From the NCBI RefSeq assembly GCF_900039485.1, contig NZ_LN999833.1:186001-250000 (forward strand): 64,000 bases of DNA, in the 5' to 3' direction. Numbering within the stretch: the first letter of the stretch is position 1; each line of letters opens with the position of its first letter. Source of the DNA: Candidatus Doolittlea endobia. GTDB lineage: Bacteria > Pseudomonadota > Gammaproteobacteria > Enterobacterales > Enterobacteriaceae. The position numbers and the translations under genes were made by a program. This document shows positions 2,870 through 47,368 of this stretch, one piece after another. Under the pieces are notes generated by a model. It ran no database searches. It saw only the letters and a program-made list of their open reading frames with translations, and had not been told where the DNA came from.

Positions 2870-3842
2870 TTTATCATATCAATGGAAAAATTAAGTGCCG
2901 CTTTAATACTCCCTGCTCCCGCCTGACCTGATCCGGTTAAGCCCAGCGCGGTACCATGATCGACAGAAATACGAATACAGGGAGAACCCAAGAATAAAAT
3001 TAACCGCCCGGTCGAATTCTTGATACTTTAACCGAAAGACCCTGATCGTGATACATCGCTAGCACCACGTCTGCCTTCTGCAAAGATTTCGATTGAATAA
3101 GATATCAGCGAGCAGAGAACCAACGAGATTATAACCTTTAGCGCGTAGCGTATCCATGGCTGGCGATATCACCTCAATTTCTTCACGGCCCATATGTCCA
3201 CCCTCGCCAGCATGGGGATTCAACCCACAAACGTAAATGCACAGCTGCGCGATGCCGAATAGCTGCTGCAGATTCTGGACCAGAATCGTTATAACGTCAT
3301 CGAGGGACCGTCGAGCGACCGTTTTAGGAGCTGCTAGTAGCGGTAAGTGGGTGGTGGCGTGCATGACACGCAGTCAGTGACCAACGTCATGACGACGCGA
3401 TTACTTCCGTTGCGCCGAGCGAAATATTCAGTAGTATTACCGCTATGCCGTTGTCGTTAATGACGACCTTATGCGCTGAACCTGTGAGTAATGCTGAAAA
3501 TGCAGCGTGAAGGCAGTCCATCATAAAAGCTCGGGCTAGCGTTTCGATCACGTAATAACTATTGGTGTTATTCAGCTGCCGCGACGACTGGTGCAGAGGT
3601 CACAATAGCTAGCACCGTTAGTTCGCCGGATCGCTGCGTGGTGACCGGTTGTTCAGGCCGATAGAGGTTACAGTTTCAACGGCAGCAAGCTGTTTTGCCC
3701 GCATCGTCAACAACGCGGGATCACAGCACAAATAACTAATTCTGCTGGCTACGTCTGTTGGCTAGTTCAGCGACCGACAAGATCCGGACCACTCCCGGCG
3801 AATTCGCCGGGAGTGATAACAATGCGTTGATTTACTGTCCAT
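2870..3842 (-). pseudogene. pdxA: Remnant of pdxA (4-hydroxythreonine-4-phosphate dehydrogenase)
   Basis: PdxA oxidises 4-phosphohydroxythreonine in vitamin B6 synthesis. Pieces are readable in order but in different frames: an N-terminal RIVITPGEFAG segment near 3785-3815, a central block in the 101-codon frame 3364-3059 containing [15 protein letters not shown], and a C-terminal DHGTALG-like piece near 2960. Several frameshifts and stops separate them, so no protein can be made. Its position between surA and rsmA is the enterobacterial one, which supports the assignment. The de novo DXP-dependent B6 route is therefore broken here. Confidence 0.9.
3790..3815. repeat. Perfect 26-bp palindrome inside the pdxA remnant
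   Basis: The two halves, CACTCCCGGCGAA and its exact reverse complement, meet at 3802/3803 and could form an 11-bp stem with an AATT loop. It lies 16 bases downstream of the surA stop but has no following T-run. It falls exactly on the codons for the PdxA N-terminal ITPGEPAG motif, so it is probably ancestral coding sequence made more symmetrical by point mutation. Confidence 0.7.
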
Positions 3843-5127
3843 GGCTATCAAATATTTTCACGTAAGCGGAGGCGCGCTGTTCCTGCATCCAAGTTTCCGC
3901 CTCTTCAGAGAACTTGCGGTTAAATAACAGTCGGTAGGCGCGATCTTTTTGGACTTTGTCGGTATAGTCCGCTTGGCGGGTGTCGATAAGCTGAATTAGA
4001 TGCCAGCCGAAAGAAGAGTGCACTGGCGTACTAATCTCCCCTTTCTTCAGGTGTATTAGCGCGTCGCGGAACGCTGGATCGAAGGCATTATTCGAAATCC
4101 AACCAAGATCGCCGCCCTGATTTGCCGAGTCAGAATCTTCGGACAGCTGTTTGGCGGCGGCAGCGAAGCTGATATCTCCTTTCTTAATTTGTGTAGCGAT
4201 ATCTTCTAACTTAGCATATGTTTGCTGGTTATTCATCATGACCGAAGTACGTAGTAAAATATGGCGTGCATGAACTTCCTTGACTATCACTTTCTGATCG
4301 CCTCCGCGGACGTCGTTAACTTTTAGAATATGAAAGCCAACTCCGGAACGAATTGGGCCGATAATCTTACCTTTCAGAGTACTCTGTAGGCATGTTGCAA
4401 ACAGAGATGGCAGTTCTTTCAATTTTCTCCATCCCATTTCCCCGCCTTTCAACGCCTGAGTATCACCGGAATAAGTCATTACCAACCTGCTGAAGTCGGC
4501 GCCGTTTTTGCTTTGCGCAATAATTGAGGTGGCTAGCGTTTCCGCTTTGTCCAGCTGATCCTGCGTCGAGTGTTCTGGTAACGGAATGAAGATATGGCTG
4601 AGATTAAATTCTGCGCCGTTGCTGGCCTGGATAGTAATCTGTTGCGCAAGAGACTTGATTTCCTGTGGCAAAATAGTAATGCGGCGGCTGACTTCTCTGT
4701 TACGTACTTCGGCAATCAACATCTCTTTTCGGATTTGTGCTCGATAGGCATGATCATCCATACCATCATAGGCCAAGCGGTTGCGAAGCTGATCGAATGG
4801 CATATGGTTTTGGTCGACGATATTATCGATGACCTGATCCAGCTGCTCGTCGCTGATAGTAATGTTATCTTGCTCAGCCAGTTGCAAAATAATGCTATCC
4901 ATAATTAGCAGATTGAGGATCTGTCGGCGTAGTGTCGCGCTGTCCGGCAACTGTTGGTTAGCTTTTTGAGCGCTGTGTCTCACAATAGACAACATATTGT
5001 TCACTTCGCTTTCCAAAACAATGGAATTGTTCACCACGGCGGCAATTTTGTCCACAATCTGCGGTGCCGCGAGCACGCCCTTAGCGCACAGGACGATGCC
5101 AAGGATACATGCTCTCCAATTTTTCAT
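3832..5127 (-). CDS. surA: Periplasmic chaperone and peptidyl-prolyl isomerase SurA
   Basis: SurA escorts unfolded outer-membrane proteins, including LptD, through the periplasm. The 431-residue product has the family length. An N-terminal signal peptide (about residues 1-20, ending VLAAPQ) is followed by the chaperone N-domain and two parvulin-type domains, starting near residues 170 ([10 protein letters not shown]) and 285 ([11 protein letters not shown]), then the C-terminal helix. It lies 66 bases downstream of lptD in the same direction, as in enterobacteria. Keeping surA next to lptD fits a cell that still builds an asymmetric outer membrane. Confidence 0.97.
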
Positions 5128-5192: not shown

Positions 5193-7547
5193 CTAAAATA
5201 TCCGCTGATAGGGCAATATACTGGAGGCTAGCATCATCTTGTTCGCACCCAAATTATAATTGTTGCTCAAACCGCGTAACTCAATATTAAGCGACACTTT
5301 ATTGTTGTACTGGCTTAAGTTGCCCGTTTTGTTCCAGTCGGTCATCTTCCGTTCATAGCCCACGTTGATAGACCAGCAGCAAGTGTTATATTGTAAAGCG
5401 ACAAGTTGGTCTCTCGGCTGATTTGCTTTCGTGTCATAATGATACGCCCCAATCAGCGACCAACGGTCTGCAAACGACCAACTTCCGATTACTCCCACTT
5501 GCGAAATACCATGCTGAAAGCTGCGACGGTTTTTTATATCAAATAACATCTGCGTAATATATGACTGACTTGCGTAACGGTAATTTAATTGTAAAATGTG
5601 GTTTTCATCTCTTTTGTACTCAAGTACCGTATTACACAACGCAACGCTGCTAAGCCTAGATTCATATTGCAGGCTGCCGCGAATCCTCCACTGATTGCTG
5701 ATACGCCAGTCGCTATCCCCTGCCAATACCACGATGCCAGTATTATTATAATCATTCCAGTCGCCTGTAATATCACCGGTACGGGGCCGCAAAAAGTAGT
5801 AGATTTGACCCACGGAAGCGTTAAATCGTTCTACGTGTTGATCATCATAAATACGGGTAGTGATACCTCCCGCTAATTGGTTAGAAGAGGAGATGCGGTC
5901 CAGACCACTGTAAATTCGATCGCGGAATAAAGCAGTATAGTCAGTTTGCAAGACGGTGGAGTCATAAACGCCGATATCGTTTTGGTTTCGATAAGGCACA
6001 AATAGATACTGCAGGCGCGGTTCCAGTGTCTGCGTGTAGTTCGGTGCATAATCTATATCACGCTCGAACAACATCTTGCCTTCAGTCTTGAACTGCGGCA
6101 ATACGCGGTTTACCGCGCTTTTCAGATAACGGCGTGTATCTGTGCTGACATTGTTCCTGTCAATATTTTTTTGCTGATAATACGTTGCCATTAGTTTAGT
6201 TTCAGTATTGAAACTACTCCAACGGTTCACTAGCGGAAAGTAAAGCGTAGGTTCGATGTGTAATCGGATCGCTTCAGGGGAACTGTTGTGAATATTGGTA
6301 AATTTAGCCGCTTGACTGAATATTTTGAAATTAAACGGACCAACATCGTTTTTATAGTAAGTTACATCAAGTTGAGGAACAACACGATAAGCGTTACTAC
6401 TATTAGTATTAAAGACCTGGAACTGTTTATACGACAAGGCGGCTTCCCAGTTCTTGTCGGCATAGCTGAAACAGAATTTCTGCGTAGCGTAACCGTCGGT
6501 GGTGTTACCGTATTTGGAATCTAAATCATTAAAGTAGTAAAAATCACTGACTTTAGTATAATCAAAGTTGAAACGCCACACCTTATTCAGGATTCCATTA
6601 TGGCGCCAGTAGAACACCCAACGATCACGATCACCGTCGATCGCTTGTTTGTTTTTGTGCAACCGATCTTTAAGAAGCCAGTCAAATGCCACCAGTCCCT
6701 CCCCAGGAGTGGTGAGGTAGCGGAGCTCGGTCTGAATCTGGATACCGTGTTGACTCATGTAATTCGACGTGATCGTGGCGTCATAATTCGGCGCCAGATT
6801 TAGGTAATATGGCGCAATAAACTCGAATCCATTATTGCTACCGTATTTGGCATGAGGAATAAGAAAGCCGGCATGGCGTTTGTTGCCGACCGGAATTGTT
6901 AAATATGGGCTGTAAAATACCGGTACGTTGCTGATTTTAAAGTATGCGTTCCAAATTTCAGCGACTTCCTTTTTGCGGTCGTGAATAATCTCTGATCCCA
7001 TAATACTCCAACTATCGTCCCCGGGTAAACACGACGTGAAACTGCCGTTTTCCAATACCGTATAACGGTTATTTCCGCGCTGTTTCATGTTATCGGCGTT
7101 GCCGCGGCCTTGCCGTCCAACCATCTGGTAATTACCCTGATAGACGTCAGTGTCTTTAGTATTAAGATTGGACCAGGCTTTTGGTCCCTGCAGCTTGATC
7201 GAATTACTGAAATAATTGACATGTCCTGTAGCAGTGACGGTACGCAGCGATGTGTTGTTCTGCGCCTGGAATTGCGTGAGCTGCACTTCATCTGCAGTGA
7301 GAGTGCTGTTGCCTTGTTTAATATCTACGTTGCCACTAAAGAACATATATTCGGGATAATTAGCTACAACTTTATCAGCCTGGATATGCACCGGAAATGA
7401 ATTAGCATCGCCGATGATCAGAGGTTTAGTATAGGCCGGTACGCTCAATAGACATTGACCCACTAGATCGGGAAACGCTTGTCGGCTATAAAGAGCGGAT
7501 CCAATAAGGCTGGTTAAAAATATGAGTAAACATTTTTTTATGAGCAT
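5193..7547 (-). CDS. lptD: LPS-assembly outer-membrane protein LptD
   Basis: LptD forms the outer-membrane barrel that, with LptE, inserts lipopolysaccharide into the outer leaflet. The reading frame is open from 7598, but I place the start at the ATG at 7547 because the signal peptide MLIKKCLLIFLTSLIG begins there. The N-terminal OstA/LptA-like domain is followed by the large beta-barrel. All four cysteines that form the maturation disulfides are present: one in GQCLLSVP, one in SFTSCLPGD and the adjacent pair in YNTCCWS near the C-terminus. At 784 residues it equals the E. coli length. The dead djlA is divergent upstream. Confidence 0.97.
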   Translation of the reverse strand: MLIKKCLLIFLTSLIGSALYSRQAFPDLVGQCLLSVPAYTKPLIIGDANSFPVHIQADKVVANYPEYMFFSGNVDIKQGNSTLTADEVQLTQFQAQNNTSLRTVTATGHVNYFSNSIKLQGPKAWSNLNTKDTDVYQGNYQMVGRQGRGNADNMKQRGNNRYTVLENGSFTSCLPGDDSWSIMGSEIIHDRKKEVAEIWNAYFKISNVPVFYSPYLTIPVGNKRHAGFLIPHAKYGSNNGFEFIAPYYLNLAPNYDATITSNYMSQHGIQIQTELRYLTTPGEGLVAFDWLLKDRLHKNKQAIDGDRDRWVFYWRHNGILNKVWRFNFDYTKVSDFYYFNDLDSKYGNTTDGYATQKFCFSYADKNWEAALSYKQFQVFNTNSSNAYRVVPQLDVTYYKNDVGPFNFKIFSQAAKFTNIHNSSPEAIRLHIEPTLYFPLVNRWSSFNTETKLMATYYQQKNIDRNNVSTDTRRYLKSAVNRVLPQFKTEGKMLFERDIDYAPNYTQTLEPRLQYLFVPYRNQNDIGVYDSTVLQTDYTALFRDRIYSGLDRISSSNQLAGGITTRIYDDQHVERFNASVGQIYYFLRPRTGDITGDWNDYNNTGIVVLAGDSDWRISNQWRIRGSLQYESRLSSVALCNTVLEYKRDENHILQLNYRYASQSYITQMLFDIKNRRSFQHGISQVGVIGSWSFADRWSLIGAYHYDTKANQPRDQLVALQYNTCCWSINVGYERKMTDWNKTGNLSQYNNKVSLNIELRGLSNNYNLGANKMMLASSILPYQRIF

Positions 7548-7694
7548 TTTAGATGTCCAGTCATCCAAAGTTCGTCTCGGCAAACGGGCAGAAAGCATAT
7601 CGCTTGCTAGCGTGCGCCAATGCTAAATTCTGCCGTTTCTTCTCGCGCCGTTAGGCTTAGCATGAAATGGTAAGTATGATGAATTGAGGAGTAT

Positions 7695-12519: not shown

Positions 12520-13677
12520 TTAAGGTGCAATTTTACGCAGATGCGTAATAGCCATTCGAGTTTTCTTGATAGCATATTCTATTTCTTCAGAAGTGGTAAA
12601 ACGTCCTAAAGAGAAACGGATAGAGCTGTGGTTAAGCTCTTCATCCAGCCCCATCGCGCGCAGTACATAGGACGGCTCAAGGCTGGCAGAAGTACAAGCA
12701 GATCCTGTTGACACCGCCAGATCTTTCAGGGTCATAATAAGCGATTCGCCGTTAACATCGCGAAAGCTAACGTTCAGCATCGTCGCTACGCTCTGTTCCA
12801 GACAGCCATTCACAGTCACCCCACTGATCCGTTGTAGTCCTTCCCACAAACGATCACGCAAAGCTCGCAAACGCGGAATTTCTTTTGCTATCGTCTTCGC
12901 CGCAAGATGATAAGCTTCTCCCATCCCGACAATTTGATGTACCGGCAGCGTCCCGGAACGCATACCTCGCTCATGGCCGCCACCATGAATTTGTGCTTCG
13001 ATTCGCACACGCGGCGTACGTCGAACGAACAGGCCACCAATGCCCTTTGGTCCGTATACTTTATGTCCGCTAAATGACATCAGATCAACCGGCAATGTTT
13101 TAAGATTGATAGGTAATTTCCCGACGCTTTGAGTAGCGTCTACATGGAACAGCACCCCACGGGTACGACACAGAGCACCGAATGCCTCGATATCTTGAAT
13201 CACGCCGGTTTCATTATTGACATGCATTAACGACACTAGAATCGTATCATCACGAATTGCAGCATCCAATTGCTGTGAAGTGAAAACGCCGTTCGCCGCC
13301 GGTATTAGCCTTGTAACCGTGAAACCTTCTTGTTCTAATTGCAAACAGGTATCTAATATTGCTTTATGCTCAGTCACGGCGGTGATAATATGGCGACCTT
13401 TGGCTCGATTAGCATGAGCCGCCCCTTTAATAGCCAGATTATCGGACTCGGTGGCGCCAGAAGTGAAAATAATTTCTCGATGGTCAGCGCCCACCAGAGC
13501 AGCGATATAATTACGGGCAATATCGACGGCTTCCTCTGCTTGCCAACCATAACGATGAGATCGAGAAGATGGATTACCGAAAATACCATCGATTCTAAGA
13601 TGATGCATCATCTTGTCTGCTACTTGTGGATCGACCGGCGTAGTAGAAGAGTAATCAAGATAAATCGGTAATTTCAT
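12520..13677 (-). CDS. iscS: Cysteine desulfurase IscS with a shortened C-terminus
   Basis: IscS takes sulfur from cysteine for Fe-S cluster assembly and tRNA thiolation. The PLP lysine is in [10 protein letters not shown] and the persulfide cysteine in [15 protein letters not shown] (about residue 328). The protein is 385 residues, about 19 shorter than E. coli IscS: it stops after LRKIAP, and the following DNA still resembles the missing tail codons (…NSIEWAHH). That tail takes part in docking IscU. No iscU follows and the upstream iscR is dead, so the surviving role may be tRNA thiolation or a partner encoded elsewhere. The catalytic core looks functional. Confidence 0.93.
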
Positions 13678-17750: not shown

Positions 17751-17897
17751 ATTATTCAAATTTATGTGTGTTTTTACTTAGGTTAGGATTAAAATCGGTA
17801 TATTCTATCACCATCTCGTAGATGGTGCCAAAGTGGTATTTGCGATTTGGTGCGTTGGAGGCCAGTTCTTTTTACCGCTATAGAGGATTATTGCAAG

Positions 17898-18542
17898 ATG
17901 GCGAAAAAGCGTTCCGCAAGCTCTAGTCATTGGCTACAGGAACATTTGAACGATAAATACGTTCAGCAGGCACAAAAAAAAAGACTGCGTTCCCGTGCCT
18001 GGTTTAAACTTGATGAAATACAGCAGAGCGACAAGCTATTCTATCCCGGGATGACTGTGGTAGATCTGGGCGCAGCGCCAGGCGGTTGGTCGCAGTACGT
18101 CGCTGCATACATCGGCGGAAAAGGGCGTATCATCGCCTGTGATATCCTGCCGATGAACCCGATGGTAGGTGTTGAGTTTCTCCAAGGAGATTTTCGTGAC
18201 CCCTTGACGCTTCAAGTTCTGCTTGAGCGCATAGGCCAGAAAAAGGTGCAAGTAGTATTGTCCGATATGGCGCCAAATATGAGCGGAACACCAGCAGTCG
18301 ACGTTCCAAAATCTATGTATCTCGTCAAGCTGGCATTGGATATGTGCCGGGATATCCTAGCACCAGGCGGAAGTTTCCTAGTTAAAGTTTTTCAGGGAGA
18401 AGGTTTTGACAAATACCTGCGAGAACTTCGCTCTCTATTTATGAAAGTAAAGATCCGCAAGCCAAACGCTTCTCGGGCTCGTTCTCGCGAAGTGTATATT
18501 GTGGCGACAGGGCGCAAATTTATACCCTACGCTAATTGTTAA
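17898..18542 (+). CDS. rlmE: 23S rRNA 2'-O-methyltransferase RlmE (FtsJ/RrmJ)
   Basis: RlmE methylates U2552 in the A-loop of 23S rRNA, a late step in 50S maturation. The frame is open from 17847, but the start is the ATG at 17898 ([17 protein letters not shown]), which aligns with the family and is preceded by TAGAGGA. The SAM motif [14 protein letters not shown] and the catalytic K-D-K-E residues (in AWFKLDE, LSDMAPN, LVKVFQG and SREVYIVA) are all present. At 214 residues it is full length. ftsH follows after 26 bases, keeping the rlmE-ftsH operon. Confidence 0.98.
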
Positions 18543-18568: not shown

Positions 18569-20494
18569 TTGAGTGACATGGCGAAGAATTTGCTTCTCTG
18601 GTTAGTTATTGCAATCGTACTGATGTCGGTATTCCAAAGCTTCGGGCTCAGGGAGTCCAATGGACGTAAAGTAGATTATTCTACTTTTATGTCTGAGGTA
18701 ACGCATGATCAGGTTAGGGCAGCGCATATTAACGGTCGTGAAATCAGCGTTACAAAAAAAGATAGTAACCGCTATACTACCTATATTCCGGTTAACGACC
18801 CTAAGCTACTCGATATTCTTTTGACTAAAAACGTCAAAGTCGTGGGTGAGCCACCAAAGGAACCCAGCCTACTGGCTTCTATCTTTATCTCCTGGTTTCC
18901 GATGCTGTTGTTGATTGGGATCTGGATATTCTTTATGCGTCAGATGCAAGGTGGTGGAGGAAAAGGCGCGATGTCGTTTGGCAAAAGCAAGGCGCGGATG
19001 TTGACGGAAGATCAGATTAAGACAACGTTCGCCGATGTTGCCGGTTGTGATGAAGCCAAAGAAGAAGTTAGTGAACTAATAGATTATCTGCGCGAACCGA
19101 GCCGTTTTCAAAAACTGGGCGGAAAGATCCCGAAAGGTGTGCTAATGGTAGGGCCTCCTGGAACCGGTAAAACGCTGCTGGCAAAAGCGATTGCTGGGGA
19201 AGCTAAAGTACCCTTCTTTACTATTTCCGGCTCTGACTTCGTAGAAATGTTCGTCGGCGTCGGCGCCTCTCGCGTGCGCGACATGTTTGAGCAAGCAAAA
19301 AAAGCGGCGCCTTGCATTATTTTTATCGATGAAATTGATGCCGTCGGGCGTCAGCGCGGCGCAGGCCTCGGTGGCGGTCATGACGAGCGCGAACAAACTT
19401 TAAATCAAATGCTAGTGGAAATGGATGGGTTTGAGGGCAACGAGGGCGTTATCGTCATTGCCGCGACCAACCGTCCCGACGTACTTGACCCAGCGCTATT
19501 ACGTCCTGGCCGATTTGACCGTCAAGTCGTGGTCGGTCTACCCGATGTTCGCGGCCGCGAACAGATTCTGACAGTGCACATGCGTCGTGTACCGCTGGCG
19601 GCCAATATGGATGCGTCGGTGATTGCACGCGGGACCCCCGGGTTCTCCGGGGCCGATTTGGCTAATCTAGTGAATGAAGCAGCGTTGTTCGCCGCCCGCA
19701 GCAGCAAGCGTGAAGTTTCTATGGTGGAATTTGAGAAGGCTAAGGACAAAATTATGATGGGCGCAGAACGCCGTTCGATGGTGATGACTGAGTCACAGAA
19801 AGAGTCTACCGCTTACCACGAGGCCGGTCATGCAATTATCGGCCGCTTATTGCCGGAGCATGATCCTGTACATAAAGTGACGATTATCCCACGCGGTCGT
19901 GCTTTAGGGGTAACTTTCTTCCTGCCGGAAGATGATGCCATTAGCGTCAGCCGCCAGAAATTAGAAAGCCAAATATCCACTCTGTATGGTGGCCGACTGG
20001 CCGAGGAAATCATCTATGGTCCGGAAAAAGTGTCTACCGGAGCGTCTAACGATATCAAAGTAGCTACTTCTATTGCCCGCAACATGGTAACCCAGTGGGG
20101 GTTTTCCGAAAAGCTCGGTCCTCTTCTGTACACGGAAACAGAGGGAGAGGTGTTCCTTGGTCGTTCAATGGCCAGGCCAAAGCATATGTCCGATGAAACG
20201 GCACGTATTATCGATCAGGAAGTGAAATCCCTAATTGAACGCAACTATCTCCGTGCTCGCGCGTTGCTGACGGAAAATATAGATATCTTGCATGCCATGA
20301 AGGATGCGTTGATGCAATATGAAACTATCGATGCGCTGCAGATCGACGATCTGATGAGTCGCAAAGCGGTTTGTCCACCAGTAGACTGGAACAATACCAT
20401 TTCCGGGAATAACGACGACGACAGGACGCCTCGAGCGCCGACTTACATAGAGGAACCGAGCACTCCAAATCCAAGTGATACCATATCGAAATAA
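18569..20494 (+). CDS. ftsH: ATP-dependent zinc metalloprotease FtsH
   Basis: FtsH is the membrane-anchored AAA+ protease that degrades LpxC, misassembled SecY and other targets. Two transmembrane segments (about residues 6-26 and 100-122) flank the periplasmic domain. The AAA module shows GPPGTGKT, the Walker B box IIFIDEIDA and a second region of homology ending RPGRFDR. The protease site HEAGH (about residues 417-421) and the third zinc ligand region TGASNDIK follow. TTG at 18569 and ATG at 18578 are alternative starts in the same frame. The C-terminal tail is diverged. Its usual downstream genes folP and glmM are dead. Confidence 0.98.
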
Positions 20495-20619: not shown

Positions 20620-21395
20620 AGCGCCATAACGCAACTTATTGCGCAAAAGCGCACCCTTTGCCTATGGGTATCGCGCGTCATTATTGGGATCCGAAATGTA
20701 ATCCCAGATTCATTTTCCGACGATGGTGACGTTTGTCCGACGCTATCGATCATGCCGCCGAGATTCTAGCAGCCGGTGCGGATTTGATCGATATTGTTGA
20801 TGCCTCTCTGAACGCTTAGAGCCGGTAATAACGACGTTAGCGGACCGCTTTTATAGTTTTACTGCAGACGCTTCCAAGGCGCTAGTGATGTGTGAAAATG
20901 CAACGGCCGAGACCCATTTGATCAATAATATCCGCTCGCTTAGTTAGCCGGGTGCCTTGAACGCCGTAGCCGCCAGCCAGCTTTCCATTTGTCTAATGCA
21001 TATGCAAGGTGAAAATCCGCATTATTAGAATGTGCTGTTAGAGGTAAAGGTTTTTCATACATCAAATGTCACGCTGTGAAACTGCCGGAATCACCAAAAT
21101 TGACTGTTGCTTGACCCATGGCTTTGATTTCAGAAAAACTTTGGTACATAATGCCACTTCCTGTTCAGGTTGGGTGATTTGCATCATCTTGGCCTGCCGC
21201 TGTTAGTGGGGATGTCGCGTAAATCAATGAGAATTATTAGGTCTTCCAGAAAAACAGCGGGTTTCAGGCAGTGTCGCATGTGCGGTTATCGCCGTGCTAC
21301 AGGGGCGCAGATTCTTCGGGTGCATGACGTTAGTCAAACTATATAAGCAATGCGCATGGTGGAAGCCACGTTTGCAGAGAAGGGGATTTATTTAA
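20620..21395 (+). pseudogene. folP: Remnant of folP (dihydropteroate synthase)
   Basis: FolP condenses pABA with the pterin pyrophosphate in folate synthesis. Readable pieces in order are IIGIRNVIPDSFSDDG near 20690-20740, an ILAAGADLIDI piece near 20770, the LINDIRSL and ICLMHMQGE region near 20920-21020, and LGLPLLVGMSRKSM, ILRVHDVSQT near 21190-21340, with stops and shifts between. It lies after ftsH and before glmM as in enterobacteria. Folate cannot be made by this copy although glyA and fmt still need it. Confidence 0.9.
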
Positions 21396-22446
21396 AATAA
21401 ATAATCATTATCTGCACCGAAAGCGATAGACTTATCACACTGGATTGTATACTTAAGCGCGTCTGAGCTACCGAAAGGTACTGGCTCGCCACGGCTTGCA
21501 TAGGTAACCGTGATTTTCGTTGTGTTTACCGGCTCGATGCCGACTCTCTAGCTATTGCTTATTGAACCCGTACTTTTCGCGCCGAGGCCGGTATTATGAT
21601 CTCCGCTTCATATAATTCGTTTTATGATAACGGCATTACGTTCTTTCTATCGACAGCACGAAACTACCCAAAAGCTATTGAAGCAGGGCTTTCGCTGACC
21701 TGTGCTGAATCAGCGGATCTAGGAAAAGTTAGCTGCATAGTCGATGTAGTCTCTCGGATACCATCCGAGACGAAATGCATATCAATCAGGAATGAGATAC
21801 TCTCGCCTGCTGCAAGGTAGAGTCCTGGCATGTCGCTACTTGTGACGGTAATCGGAGTTATATCGATCATTTAGATCAGAAAGTAAATAATGATCAGATT
21901 CCGCATGTTATCGCACGTGGAGCCCTGTACAAGGGCCAGCCGTTTGGCGGCATAGTTAGCACGCTAATGAAGCATTATGGGGTTAACGCTAATACTGAAG
22001 CAATTAAAGGTGCCTTTTATACGCGTTCTTTTCGGCGACCGCGATGTGCTGGATGCAAGAACAAGCTGTGCATTAATACTAAAGACTTTTGGCACATTAT
22101 CTTGCTTGACAAGATGATCACAGGAGACGGTATTATTTCCAGGCTATAAGTATTATCAGCGATAGTCGATAATCATATGAATCTGCATGATCTGTGCAAT
22201 GGTGTGCATCTGTTACCACAGATCCTAATTCAATGTATGTTTTTCTGGCAACAGATTCTCTATTGGCGTCGACTGTAAACAGTCTAGCAACGCAATTAAA
22301 CAGAAACTCGCCAGATGCGGCTGAGTTCTTCTTTATAAATTAGGCACTGAACCTCTCTTGTCCGAGTCAAGGTAGAAGGAGAAAACACCGAGCATGTTAG
22401 CCGACTAGCGCATTATATCGCTGATGCAGTGAAAGCTGTGAGCTGA
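21396..22446 (+). pseudogene. glmM: Remnant of glmM (phosphoglucosamine mutase)
   Basis: GlmM makes glucosamine-1-phosphate, the precursor of UDP-GlcNAc for peptidoglycan and LPS. The active-site serine region survives as [16 protein letters not shown] (from 21596), followed by [12 protein letters not shown], a GDQIPHVIARGALYKGQPFG block near 21890-21950, HIILLDKMITGDGI near 22095-22135, HMNLHDLCNG near 22175 and the terminal IADAVKAVS with a stop at about 22446. The metal-binding DGDGDR loop is not readable and many frameshifts and stops intervene. Usually essential, so its loss is notable. Confidence 0.9.
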
Positions 22447-23267
22447 GATGCGAACATGTGCTAACTCTATGGTAATTGTGGTCAGCGCAATTCATATGAT
22501 GGCTGCAAGTATGGCGTGCATGATTATATCATCATTCTATGGCTTATACATCACTTGTCAGTGTATGGGGATAACAAGATCGGAGCCATACATCGATCGT
22601 GTAAAAAACTATGTTAAATTTACTGAGCAATGTTGTATTGCTCCAAAAATAAACAAAGGCTCATGTTCTTATGAGATTTTAAACATACAACAGCTACTAA
22701 TGAGTGGCCTTGTGGCGTACATTAAATCATTTTCACAACAGATAATAACTGTAACGTTAAATGTTATTGGCAATCTGCTTTGGTGTTATGTTTCAAAATG
22801 CGCTATCACAGTATTGAGGATAATTTCTAATACTTGTACCGTATCTCTACATCTGGCACTATGCATTGCAGCTGGTATACCGTCTGATTAAGCGCCTTGA
22901 TTCGACTGCGTTAAAATGAAAGGCACGATCCTCTATATATATTAAAATAGGAAATTAAGCAGTGGCAGAGCCGATTTGCCAAAAGAGAATCTTTCTTTTT
23001 AGCAAGCACTTGGATTCGATTTATTGTGATCTAGACGCCATCTTGTAACACTAACACAGTTAGTTGTATTCTCTTGCTCCCACCCAATAACAGTCGTTAA
23101 AAGATCTCTTTATAGATACACACTAATTTGCTGCGAAAATGTACGATATCATTATAATGCCTGACCCCAATGGCAAATCAGCACCGAAATGTCAGCAAAA
23201 GATAACTAATTGAGTTATCTACTTAATAATGTAAATTAAATGTAAATTAAATGGAGGTTGTCGCACA
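22447..23267. other. Spacer between glmM remnant and aroQ, with an unrecognised open frame
   Basis: A plus-strand frame of 147 codons (22448-22891) opens directly at the end of the glmM remnant. Its predicted product is unusually rich in Cys and Met, has no ribosome-binding site that I can see, and matches nothing I know (it is not SecG, the usual neighbour). I treat it as probably fortuitous. The remaining sequence to 23267 holds the aroQ ribosome site (GGAGG at about 23252) and nothing else identifiable. Confidence 0.3.
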
Positions 23268-25645: not shown

Positions 25646-26872
25646 TTGTCTCTGTTTGAAAGTCTAAACCTATTGATTCAGCGTTCTCTGCCCGAGGATC
25701 AGATAAAACTCCTTCGACAAGCTTATCTTGTCGCTCGTGATGCCCACGAGGGGCAGACTCGTTCCAGTGGTGAGCCTTACATCACTCATCCGGTGGCGGT
25801 TGCCTGCATTTTAGCCGAAATGCGTCTCGATCACGAAACGCTAATGGCGGCGCTGTTGCATGACGTTATCGAAGATACCCCAGCTACTTATCAGGACATG
25901 AAACAGCTGTTCGGCACAAGCGTCGCCGGGCTAGTGGAAGGAGTATCTAAGCTGGACAAGTTTCAATTCCTCGACAAGCAAGAAGCCCAAGCGGAAAACT
26001 TCCGTAAAATGCTCATGGCGATGGTGCAAGATATCCGCGTTGTGCTGATAAAGCTTGCCGACCGTACTCACAATATGCGTACACTAGGTGCCCTACGACC
26101 AGATAAACGCCGCCGTATCGCGCGAGAAACGCTTGAAATCTACAGCCTATTAGCCCATAGGCTAGGGATTCATCACCTGAAGATCGAACTAGAAGAACTG
26201 GGATTTAAAGCTCTGTATCCTAATCGATACCGTGTCATTAAAGAAGTAGTCAAAACGGTCCGCGGTAACCGCAAGGAAATGATCCAGAAAATACTCACTG
26301 AAATAGAGGATTGTTTAACTGAAGTGGGCATTTCCTGTCGCGTCAGCGGACGAGAAAAACATCTTTACTCTATTTATTGCGAAATGCATTTAAAAGAACA
26401 GCGTTTGCGCTCTATCATGGATATTTACGCTTTTCAGGTGATCGTTAGCGATGTGGATACCTGTTACCGAGTGCTGGGGAAAATACATAGCTTATATAAA
26501 CCTCGTCCAGGACGAGTCAAGGATTATATTGCAATTCCCAAAGCTAACGGTTATCAATCGTTACACACCTCAATGATAGGTCCACACGGCGTGCCGATTA
26601 AAGTGCAGATTCGTACCGAGAACATGGACCAAATAGCGGAAATAGGGATAACAGCCCATCTGACGTATAAAGAGCATGGCTTAATCGGTACTACGGTGCA
26701 AATTTGCGCTCAGCGCTGGATGCAAAATCTTCTTGAGCTTCAGAAGAATGCCGTTAGCTCGTTTGAATTTATTGAAAGCGTTAAGTCTGATCTCTTTCTC
26801 GACGAAATTTACGTTTTTACCCCGAACAGCTCTACCCGATTTCTCAATCGCTCATCAAAGGCTAGGCTGTAG
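25646..26872 (+). CDS. spoT: Truncated (p)ppGpp hydrolase/synthetase SpoT
   Basis: SpoT makes and destroys the alarmone (p)ppGpp. The start is a TTG at 25646 (LFESLNLLIQRSLPEDQ aligns with the family start). The HD hydrolase domain is intact with HDVIEDT (about residues 72-78), and the synthetase region with YKPRPGRVKDYIAIPKANGY (about 290-309) is also intact. The protein ends at residue 408 instead of about 702: after FTPN the frame shifts and a stop follows. It therefore lacks the TGS, helical and ACT domains that sense starvation. It could be a constitutive two-domain enzyme or a gene early in decay; the uniform conservation of the first 390 codons favours a functional product. Confidence 0.85.
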   Translation: MSLFESLNLLIQRSLPEDQIKLLRQAYLVARDAHEGQTRSSGEPYITHPVAVACILAEMRLDHETLMAALLHDVIEDTPATYQDMKQLFGTSVAGLVEGVSKLDKFQFLDKQEAQAENFRKMLMAMVQDIRVVLIKLADRTHNMRTLGALRPDKRRRIARETLEIYSLLAHRLGIHHLKIELEELGFKALYPNRYRVIKEVVKTVRGNRKEMIQKILTEIEDCLTEVGISCRVSGREKHLYSIYCEMHLKEQRLRSIMDIYAFQVIVSDVDTCYRVLGKIHSLYKPRPGRVKDYIAIPKANGYQSLHTSMIGPHGVPIKVQIRTENMDQIAEIGITAHLTYKEHGLIGTTVQICAQRWMQNLLELQKNAVSSFEFIESVKSDLFLDEIYVFTPNSSTRFLNRSSKARL

Positions 26873-31482: not shown

Positions 31483-33006
31483 CTATTTTTCAGGGCGCAA
31501 TGCCGGGAACAGAATTACGTCGCGTATAGTATGCTTATTAGTTAATAGCATTATCAGGCGATCAATACCAATTCCCAATCCAGCAGTTGGCGGCAAGCCG
31601 TGCTCAAGTGCAGTGATATAGTCATTGTCATAGAACATCGCTTCATTGTCGCCGCCGTCTTTGGCTTCAGCTTGCTCGACAAAGCGCGCTGCCTGATCTT
31701 CAGCATCGTTAAGTTCTGAAAAACCGTTTCCGATTTCACACCCGCCGATAAAAAATTCAAAACGATCGGTAAAAAATGGATTATCATCATTGCGGCGCGC
31801 CATCGGCGATACTTCCGCCGGGTAAGCGGTGATGAAAGTAGGTTGAATGAGATAATTTTCCGTTGTCTCTTCAAAAATCTCGGCCTGAACTCGTCCAAGT
31901 CCCCAGTTTTTGTCAACCTTGATGCCCAATGACGAGGCCATAAAAGTGGCGGAAGCTATATCGTCCAGCATTTCCGGATGGGTTCCTGGACAATAATAGC
32001 AGATAGCTTCTTTCATAGTCATTTTAGTAAACGGCTTGCCGAAATCAAAAATTTGATCGCCATAACGTACTATACTGCTGCCGAGTACCCGTTGCGTCAA
32101 GGTTCGTAATAACAGTTCCACTAGAAGAATTAAATCACAGTAGTCCGCATAAGCCATATAAAGTTCCATCATAGTGAACTCGGGATTATGATGTGGTGAT
32201 AAGCCTTCATTGCGAAAATTGCGATTGATTTCAAATACCCGTTCAAATCCTCCTACTACCAGCCGTTTCAAATGCAGCTCCGGCGCGATACGCAGATACA
32301 TGTCGATATTCAGAGCATTATGATGAGTGATAAACGGACGCGCGGCAGCAGCACCAGGGATAGTCTGCATCATCGGTGTTTCCACTTCCATAAAATCGTT
32401 AGCCATCATAAAACGGCGAATCTCCGTTATAATGCGCGAACGTGCTTTAAATGTTTGGCGTGATTCATCATTGGTGATTAAATCAAGATAACGCTGGCGA
32501 TAGCGGGTTTCCTGATCGGCCAAGCCGTGAAATTTATCCGGCAGAGGACGGATCGCTTTAGTCAATAGACGAATTTCGCTACAGTGGACCGACAACTCGC
32601 CGGTATGGGTTTTAAATAATTTTCCGCGTGCGCCTAGAATGTCGCCGAGATCCCATTTTTTAAACTGCTCGTTATATTGCGTTTCTGGCAAAGCGTCTCG
32701 GGTAACATACAACTGGATCTTCCCACCCACGTCCTGTAAAGTAACAAAGGAGGCTTTACCCATAATACGGCGGGTCATCATACGACCGGCAATGCGGACC
32801 TCACTGTTCAGCGATTCTAGTTCTTCATTGCTTTTCTCTCCGTAGCGAGCGTGCAACTGATCGCACACAGCATCCCGTCGGAAATCGTTGGGGAAAGCAA
32901 TACCCTGCTGACGCAATTGGCAAAGTTTTTCCCGACGAGAGCGCAGTTCGTTATTCATATGCAGCGTCTGAGAAGTACTGTCCTGTAAGTATAATTCCAA
33001 CATCAT
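31483..33006 (-). CDS. lysS: Lysyl-tRNA synthetase (class II)
   Basis: LysS charges tRNA-Lys. The N-terminal OB-fold anticodon-binding domain ([17 protein letters not shown]) is followed by the class II catalytic core with motif 2 ([20 protein letters not shown]) and motif 3 ([12 protein letters not shown]). The length of 507 residues is normal. The frame starts at ATG 33006, which overlaps the prfB stop in an ATGA, implying translational coupling; in E. coli the two genes are a few bases apart. Residues 1-15 are unlike the family and a slightly later start is possible. Confidence 0.97.
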
Positions 33007-34100
33007 AGCCCTGCTTTAAGACTAGCTTCAATAAATTTGTCCAGATTACCATCTAGCATTGATTGGGTGTTACGCGTTTCCATACCAGTACGCAGATCCT
33101 TGATGCGAGAATCGTCTAACACGTATGATCGGATCTGATTTCCCCAGACAATATCGGATTTAGTATCTTCTAGCGCTTGCTTTTCTGCGTTCTTTTTCTG
33201 CAGCTCAAATTCATATAGCTTAGCTTTTAGCTGTTTTATAGCCTGATCTTTATTTTTATGCTGCGAGCGATCGTTCTGACATTGTGTGACGATATTAGTC
33301 GGCAAATGGGTAATCCGCACTGCGGATTCAGTTCGATTAACGTGCTGGCCGCCGGCGCCAGAGGCGCGATAAACATCAATGCGCAGATCCGATGGATTGA
33401 TATCAATATCGATATCATCGCTTACTGCCGGGTAAACGAAAGCAGAGCTAAACGAAGTGTGACGCCGGCCGCCAGAGTTAAAGGGACTCTTTCGTACCAG
33501 GCGATGTACTCCTGTTTCAGTTCGTAGCCAGCCATAAGCATAGTCGCCGGTGACCTTGATAGTCACCGATTTGATGCCGGCTACTTCCCCTGCGGACTCT
33601 TCGATAATTTCAGTTTTGAAACCGCGCGATTCCGCCCAGCGCAAATACATTCTGAGCAGTATGCTGGCCCAATCCTGCGCTTCAGTACCACCGGATCCGG
33701 CCTGGATATCAACATAGCAATCGGCGCTGTCGTATTCACCGGAGAACATACGGCGAAACTCGAGATGATTCAGCTTATCTTCCAGGCTGTTTAAATCTGC
33801 CTGAGTTTCGAGGAAAGTCTCTTCGTCGTCCTCTTCTACCGCTAGTTCTAACAAGCCGGTAATATCTTCCAAGCGCTGGGTTAGCTGATCGATGATTTTA
33901 ACAATCGCTTCCAGCGACGAGCGCTCTTTTCCTAGCACCTGCGCGCGTTCAGGTTCATGCCAGAGGTCGTGCTGTTCCAGCTCAGCGTTTACTTCTTCAA
34001 GACGTTCTTTTTTAATATCGTAGCCAAAATATCCCCTCAGAACGACTATCCTTTCCGACAGGTCTTGAATACGGTTTTTAACCGGATTAATTTCAAACAT
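33003..34100 (-). CDS. prfB: Peptide chain release factor 2, without programmed frameshift
   Basis: RF2 terminates translation at UGA and UAA. The whole 365-residue protein is read in a single frame. At codons 22-26, where enterobacteria have RGY-L with CTT TGA C and must shift +1, this gene reads AGG GGA TAT TTT GGC TAC, so the in-frame UGA and the slippery CTT are gone. The upstream SD-like AGGGG that stimulates the shift is still there as a fossil. The tripeptide anticodon region (SPF in [14 protein letters not shown]) and the catalytic GGQ ([13 protein letters not shown]) are intact. It lies between recJ and lysS as in E. coli. Confidence 0.97.
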
Positions 34101-45835: not shown

Positions 45836-47368
45836 CTAGACCGAGCGTGCGAAGTGACGTAGTCGGAATCCCATCAGCCACAGTGTAGCGAAATAAACTA
45901 TCCCTCCCACCGCAACTACACCCATAAGGCGTAGAAGCCGCCAGAACATACTGCCTTGTGCCCAGTCGGGCATTATCATTAAAAGCCCGACAAGCGCTGC
46001 CGCCATAACAATAACTGCTAGTAACAACCGACAGCAAAATCCCATCCATCCCGGCTGCGGTTCAAACAGTTTTTGTCGGCGTAATTGCCAATACAAGAGC
46101 GCGGCATTAAGACAGGCTGCTAGACCTATGGATAGCGATAAGCCGGCATGTTTTAGCGTACCAACAAAAGCCAAGTTCATTAATTGCGTTATGAGAAGCG
46201 TAATCATCGCTATACGTACCGGAGTTTTGATGTCTTGTCTGGAGTAAAACCCTGGCGCAAGTACTTTGACCAAAATCAAACCAACTAAGCCCACTGAATA
46301 AGCTATTAAAGCTCGTTGCGTCATCAAAGCGTCAAAGGCAGAGAACTTGCCGTATTGGAATAGCGCGACGGTCAATGGATGCGCTAAAATTCCTAGTGCT
46401 ACAGCACTAGGAAACGCCAGCATGAAGCATAAGCGTAACCCCCAGTCCAGTAAATGAGAGTGCTCAGCGTAATTCCCGCGTGTAAAGCTACGCGATAATA
46501 AAGGCAATAAAATAGTTCCTATCGCCATACCGAGCACACCGGATGGAAACTCCATCAAACGATCGGCATAATACATCCACGACACCGAGCCGGAAGCTAA
46601 AAAAGAAGCAAAAATAGTATTGATAATAATGGAGATTTGGCTGACGGATACACCGAGGAGAGCCGGTCCCATTTGCCGCAGTACGCGCCAAACACCGGCG
46701 TCATGGCACTGTAGTCTAGGAAAGACCAACATGCCAATTTTCTTCAGGTGAGACAGCTGATATCCCAGTTGCAGGATGCCACCGGTCACTACGGCCCAGG
46801 CCAGCGCCATAATAGGTGGATGGAAGAGTGATGCTGCTAACAACGCGAAACCTATCATGCTAACATTGAATAACGTCGGTGCGAATGCCGGTGCAGAGAA
46901 GCAGTTCCAAGTATTCAGAACCGCTCCAACTAGAGAAGTGAGAGAAATCAGAAAAATATAGGGAAATGTGACACGTAACAGCGCTGTAGTCAAAACAAAT
47001 TTCTCTGGCATACCGGTAAATCCCGGTGCAGTAATTGTCACGATCCAGGGTGCAGCCAACATACCTGTTATGGTGATCAGCGCCAGAACCAACATGAGTA
47101 AGCCTGCAACATAAGTGACAAACACGCGTGTAACTACATCACCTTTCAGGCTCTTGTATTCCGCTAAAATAGGAACAAACGCTTGTGAAAAAGCTCCTTC
47201 GGCGAAGATGCGCCGCAATAGATTGGGAATTTTGAAAGCCACGCAAAAAGCGTCACTTTCCATGCCCGCGCCAAACACTCTCGCAACGATGGTGTCGCGA
47301 ATAAACCCTAGAACGCGGGAAAAAAGTGCCATGGAACTGACCGCTGCCAGTGTTTTTAATAAATTCAT
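45836..47368 (-). CDS. murJ: Lipid II flippase MurJ (MviN)
   Basis: MurJ flips the peptidoglycan precursor lipid II across the inner membrane. The protein is 510 residues, as in E. coli, and mostly hydrophobic, consistent with 14 transmembrane helices. The N-terminal [25 protein letters not shown] and the [29 protein letters not shown] block carry the conserved arginines of the central cavity. No frame damage is seen. Its retention argues that some peptidoglycan is still made, in apparent conflict with the dead glmM 24 kb away. Flagellar genes usually near it are absent. Confidence 0.96.

Follow-up and report, generated by a model that had tools for sequence, protein, structure and literature searches.

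The mealybug Planococcus citri and its symbiont Moranella endobia reportedly share a mosaic peptidoglycan pathway of insect and bacterial enzymes, as is said to have been described by Husnik in 2013 and by Bublitz in 2019. In the part of a review cited here, the GlmS, GlmM and GlmU steps in P. citri are reported as host-encoded, and the way in which the insect enzymes reach the Moranella cytosol is given as undetermined (PMC7154730). According to the sections cited from two further reports, the insect carries acquired murA-F and ddlB (PMC5664097), lipid IVA synthesis is said to persist in Moranella, and in Tremblaya princeps, the other partner in this system, every murein and LPS gene has been lost (PMC3620526). 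A survey of obligate intracellular bacteria, in the portion cited, describes the generation of UDP-GlcNAc as problematic and suggests novel importers; some bacteria with intermediate peptidoglycan are given there as having no GlmM, and all Rickettsiaceae as having neither GlmM nor GlmS (PMC5814848). For Rickettsia, the cited part of another study describes a retained GlmU uridyltransferase domain and predicts import of GlcNAc-1-P (PMC5615194).

The DNA analysed here (the window; 64,000 nucleotides) corresponds to C1:186001-250000 of the genome of Candidatus Doolittlea endobia, which comprises 846,562 bases in 2 contigs and is 99.91% complete. The coordinates of the features discussed are collected in Table 1. 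The glmM gene of the window had been described as dead in the initial annotation, and this was confirmed: it consists of two recognisable pieces in different frames, with 7 in-frame stops and frame-breaking gaps. With tblastn, piece 1 (frame 2) corresponded to residues 83-157 of E. coli GlmM (53% identity, E 2e-17) and piece 2 (frame 1) to residues 243-445 (36% identity, E 1.5e-25). The same two pieces were recovered with TIGR01455 (68 and 42 bits), so that the best score stayed at 68 bits, and a single full-length open frame above the curated cut-off of 447.55 was not found. In a global DNA alignment with the best of 10 enterobacterial glmM genes, 698 of 1022 bases were identical, and the score was 168.8 versus a maximum of 5.1 among 20 shuffles; the alignment held 39 gaps (30 not divisible by three), a count that varies with the chosen penalties. 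Judged from the DNA, the region is a true relic of glmM, and a chance match is ruled out. Compared with a working gene, the relic is short by about 280 bases, which argues that the loss of glmM is not very recent. An assembly gap or a sequencing error is an unlikely cause of the broken gene, given the completeness of the genome and its assembly into two contigs, the number of stops and gaps, and the decay of the adjoining folP.

The gene order rlmE-ftsH-folP-glmM matches that of E. coli. The folP relic carries 6 to 7 stops, and its main piece is 42% identical to E. coli FolP. No match to secG was found beside the glmM relic with tblastn at E<=1. An open frame of 147 aa lies directly after the relic, roughly at the position of secG in E. 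coli; it matched no NCBIfam or Pfam family and, from its sequence, is probably a chance frame. In a tree of 23 FtsH sequences (22 of the 80 loci and the window), the window fell on an unresolved fork and received no placement.

Table 1. Coordinates of the features discussed; positions refer to the window unless a contig (C1) or another locus (L) is named.
Feature	Position	Strand	Description
surA	3832..5127	-	intact (431 aa); NF008038 703.9 bits, cut-off 394
lptD	5193..7598	-	intact (801 aa); NF002997 1148 bits, cut-off 683
iscS	12520-13677	-	385 aa
rlmE	17847..18542	+	intact; 83% identity to E. coli
ftsH	18569..20494	+	intact (641 aa); 88% identity to E. coli, 638/644 residues aligned
folP relic	20680..21390	+	pseudogene for dihydropteroate synthase, flanked by ftsH and the glmM relic
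glmM relic	21396..22446	+	pseudogene for phosphoglucosamine mutase; piece 1 at 21551-21757, piece 2 at 21844-22440
Open frame	22448-22891	+	147 aa; probably a chance frame
spoT frame	25646-26872	+	408 aa
prfB	33003-34100	-	release factor 2; 365 aa
murJ	45836..47368	-	intact (510 aa); TIGR01695 512.2 bits, cut-off 235.55
PBP2-type protein	C1:63396-64406 (domain)		complete, 634 aa
PBP1B-type protein	C1:767152-767871 (domain)		complete, 810 aa
ftsI and ftsW relics	L093 8355-9443, 14774-15294 (C1:120354-121442, 126773-127293)		septal wall synthesis pair
GHL10 frame	L095 6884-8227		open; glycosyl hydrolase
Isolated mutase gap loci	L059 7226-8820; L110; L111; L112 with L115; L113; L114		glmS and glmU kept, no full-length glmM
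glmM, Arsenophonus of Aleurodicus floccissimus	L074 7976-9307		intact
glmM relic, Arsenophonus of Aleurodicus dispersus	L079 7969-8567		10 stops

Three other genes of the window were observed in altered form. The prfB gene is a single frame and lacks a stop near codon 26, so that the programmed frameshift of E. coli prfB appears to be lost. The SpoT model has 702 residues, of which the spoT frame covers 1-395, and the frames downstream, as judged by eye, are full of stops; the catalytic half encoded by the remaining frame may still work. The iscS gene is short by about 20 residues at the C-terminal end when compared with IscS models.

The other enzymes of the route that contains GlmM were sought in the whole genome, and in the genome search for glmU, glmS, lpx and mur genes, proposed in the initial annotation, glmU and glmS were not found, and the examined mur and lpx genes were open. 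For GlmU, no copy was found in the whole genome at E<=1, and the four weak matches were all other proteins, namely a KdsB-like cytidylyltransferase, LpxD (two matches) and LpxA. The uridyltransferase half of the GlmU model matched solely this cytidylyltransferase (251 aa, Pfam PF02348; named KdsB by inference), and a truncated GlmU with the uridyltransferase domain, as expected for GlcNAc-1-P import of the Rickettsia type, was not found in the genome. For GlmS, likewise, no copy was found in the whole genome at E<=1; the one weak match (C1:19742) was the isomerase domain of KdsD. When the whole genome was searched at E<=10 for other phosphohexomutases with PF02878 (domain I), which matched 14 of 14 control genomes, only the glmM relic was detected. 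From the genome sequence, no working copy of any of the three enzymes leading from fructose-6-phosphate to UDP-GlcNAc was thus found; a symbiont without glmS, glmM and glmU is likewise the pattern of the mealybug mosaic type, in which UDP-GlcNAc is supplied by the host.

The later envelope genes present another picture. The direct users of UDP-GlcNAc are MurA, MurG and LpxA, all of which take it in the cytoplasm; MurJ and LptD do not use it themselves. All three users are intact (MurA, 583.9 bits, cut-off 392.7; MurG, 356.2 bits, cut-off 250.25; LpxA, 343.6 bits, cut-off 231.05), and the mealybug mosaic type is also one in which the symbiont keeps its UDP-GlcNAc-using enzymes (MurA or MurG, and LpxA). 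Also intact are murC, murD, murE, murF, mraY, lpxC, lpxD, lpxB, fabZ, bamA, lptB, kdsD, ftsA and ftsZ, and lptA has 172 of 185 residues aligned with no stop. An apparent stop in lptC in the tblastn alignment proved, from the reading frames, to be the terminal stop. Two penicillin-binding proteins, typed by their domains, are complete: one of the PBP2 type with PBP-dimer and transpeptidase domains, and one of the PBP1B type with transglycosylase, UB2H and transpeptidase domains. Near the kdsB-like gene, an open frame for a GHL10 glycosyl hydrolase was observed, which we take to resemble the E. coli peptidoglycan hydrolase DigH. As had been noted initially, lptD, surA and murJ are intact, all scoring above the NCBIfam cut-offs with nearly the whole model covered. 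The accompanying expectation, that loss of glmM should starve MurJ and LptD of substrates, was framed narrowly, given that neither protein is a direct user and that the GlmS, GlmM and GlmU steps are all gone.

Eleven of the Mur, MraY and Lpx genes (murA, C, D, E, F, G, mraY, lpxA, B, C, D) were compared with those of E. coli. None contained a stop, and third codon positions held 0.54-0.74 of the differences, versus 0.48 in both the glmM relic (7 stops) and the folP relic (6 stops in this comparison). The share was 0.51-0.52 in the relics of ftsI, ftsW and kdsC, and 0.50, 0.54 and 0.56 in the open lptC, murF and murE, respectively. This measure therefore divides relics from open genes weakly, and the argument rests mainly on the stops.

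GlmM above the cut-off was found in 100 of 118 genomes, that of Doolittlea included, and 18 were without it. GlmU, murA and lpxA were searched in 28 genomes, that is, in the 18 without full-length GlmM (among them G028, a poor genome with 49% completeness) and in 10 with glmM as controls. All 10 controls had glmU and murA above the cut-off, and 8 had lpxA. Among the 18, glmU was above the cut-off in 5 (G018, G021, G039, G055 and G066), murA in 9 and lpxA in 6. The pattern of the window genome (G000), in which full-length glmM and glmU are missing and murA and lpxA are kept, was shared with G005 only (2 of 18), so it is uncommon, but not unique. Two of the 18 (G030 and G058) had murA without glmU and lpxA, and one (G063) had lpxA without glmU and murA. 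In the five relatives with glmU but no full-length glmM, a full-length glmS adjoins glmU; it is for such an isolated gap at the mutase step that a replacement mutase would be a reasonable idea. One of the five, G066, is apparently Sodalis sp. CWE (L059), in which an intact folP lies about 570 bases from secG, with no match to glmM there. In another, G018, glmM is broken up into a pair of overlapping frames with no stops and, from its sequence, may still work.

The glmM gene was also inspected at 9 of the 80 named loci, mostly of symbionts. It was intact at five (L029, L041, L045, L060 and L074) and not found at the locus in three (L059, L067 and L069). The Arsenophonus of Aleurodicus dispersus (L079) has a glmM relic and an intact folP, and the Arsenophonus of A. 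floccissimus has an intact glmM (L074); these two symbionts of Aleurodicus whiteflies form a natural pair for studying the loss of glmM.

When set beside the described systems, the Doolittlea genome resembles the P. citri and Moranella pair, as far as the cited sections describe it, in that the GlmS, GlmM and GlmU steps, there assigned to the insect, are gone from a symbiont which keeps later envelope steps. It differs in that the insect P. citri holds murA-F and ddlB, whereas in Doolittlea the symbiont itself has retained murA, C, D, E and F, so that, of the steps checked, mainly the beginning at UDP-GlcNAc is missing. The failure to find ddlB in the division cluster would fit a host copy, by analogy with P. 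citri. With the Rickettsiaceae, in the cited parts of the two studies, Doolittlea shares the absence of GlmS and GlmM, the retention of Mur and Lpx genes, and also the loss of kdsC (PMC5615194, PMC5814848). Unlike Rickettsia, which is described as keeping a GlmU domain, the Doolittlea genome shows no part of GlmU, and so UDP-GlcNAc itself or the enzymes would have to enter, rather than GlcNAc-1-P. Genome reduction has likewise reached several different stages among the enterobacterial symbionts of stink bugs; however, in the cited portion of that report, the glm genes are present in all of these genomes, and lipid A synthesis is what those of less than 1 Mb have lost, which is another order of loss (PMC8032781).

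This reduced enterobacterial symbiont probably no longer makes UDP-GlcNAc, and its host is inferred to be an insect. Insects synthesise UDP-GlcNAc for chitin. By elimination and from the published precedent, we consider it probable that UDP-GlcNAc, or the enzymes synthesising it, comes from the host. Three options had been offered in the initial annotation (a replacement mutase, supply from the host or a partner bacterium, and envelope genes next to decay), and supply from outside is the best supported of them, with the host favoured and the partner as a rival. In the mechanism that we propose as the simplest, the hexosamine pathway of the host cell, which produces UDP-GlcNAc for chitin and glycoproteins, would be the source, and finished UDP-GlcNAc would reach the symbiont cytoplasm from that cell; entry would be through a putative transporter, not described so far, or host enzymes would act inside the symbiont. 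Since MurA, MurG and LpxA need UDP-GlcNAc in the cytoplasm and no GlmU domain was found, UDP-GlcNAc would have to be either imported as such or made inside by host enzymes. That intact UDP-GlcNAc crosses the inner membrane via a bacterial transporter of an undescribed kind is put forward tentatively, on the grounds that no part of GlmS or GlmU was found and GlmM is dead, yet three UDP-GlcNAc-dependent enzymes are kept.

The explanation next in likelihood, although it is an unlikely one, is that the remaining Mur and Lpx genes are next to decay, with the loss of glmS, glmM and glmU as a first step and UDP-GlcNAc no longer used. Decay is indeed partial. The relics of ftsI and ftsW (3 stops each) sit in a cluster with intact mur genes, kdsC is a relic with 2 stops, no significant match to ddlB or ftsQ was found in the division cluster, mraZ and ftsL left weak traces only there, and rpoN and rapZ are also relics. 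From the state of ftsI, ftsW, kdsC, ddlB and ftsQ, the users of UDP-GlcNAc could also be disappearing, and the third-position bias of murF and murE is little above that of the ftsI, ftsW and kdsC relics. Against this reading, the eleven Mur, MraY and Lpx genes are free of stops, versus 2 to 7 in glmM, folP, ftsI, ftsW and kdsC, the two penicillin-binding proteins are complete, and the users survive even though the loss of glmM is not very recent. The initial suggestion of imminent decay is therefore borne out for part of the division and envelope genes and not for the Mur, MraY and Lpx genes compared.

We see a slim chance that a bacterial partner in the same host, and not the insect, supplies UDP-GlcNAc. 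A precedent for such complementation is the aphid Ceratovacuna japonica, in which, according to the cited part of the report, Arsenophonus keeps glmMSU and mur genes lost by Buchnera (PMC9672956); if the host of Doolittlea is a mealybug, however, the known partner Tremblaya princeps is, in the excerpt cited, without murein or LPS genes (PMC3620526). Substitution for GlmM inside the symbiont by another enzyme, be it a phosphohexomutase or an unrelated mutase, is very improbable. Mutases can substitute for one another, as indicated by PgcA of Bacillus subtilis, which moonlights as a phosphoglucosamine mutase in the cited portion of one study (PMC6797236), and the five relatives with glmS and glmU but no full-length glmM would be natural places for such an enzyme. 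In Doolittlea, the suggestion of a replacement mutase or a second glmM elsewhere in the genome found no support in the PF02878 search, and with glmS and glmU also not found, a mutase alone restores nothing. As far as the genome sequence can tell, replacement by the known mutase families is largely refuted here, leaving room for an enzyme of unrelated fold.

Host supply of UDP-GlcNAc, the reading that we prefer, is already reported for one mealybug symbiosis, and the twist here is that much of the Mur route (murA, C-G and mraY) is still bacterial. With murA, C, D, E, F, G and mraY still in the symbiont, the gap is narrowed, among the steps checked, to the supply of UDP-GlcNAc, and the Doolittlea genome may show the situation more cleanly than Moranella does. 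As a speculation, this points to an order of loss in which the sugar supply precedes the mur genes. If UDP-GlcNAc itself enters, a bacterial import route for a nucleotide sugar must exist, and the host would control the sugar with which peptidoglycan and lipid A both begin.
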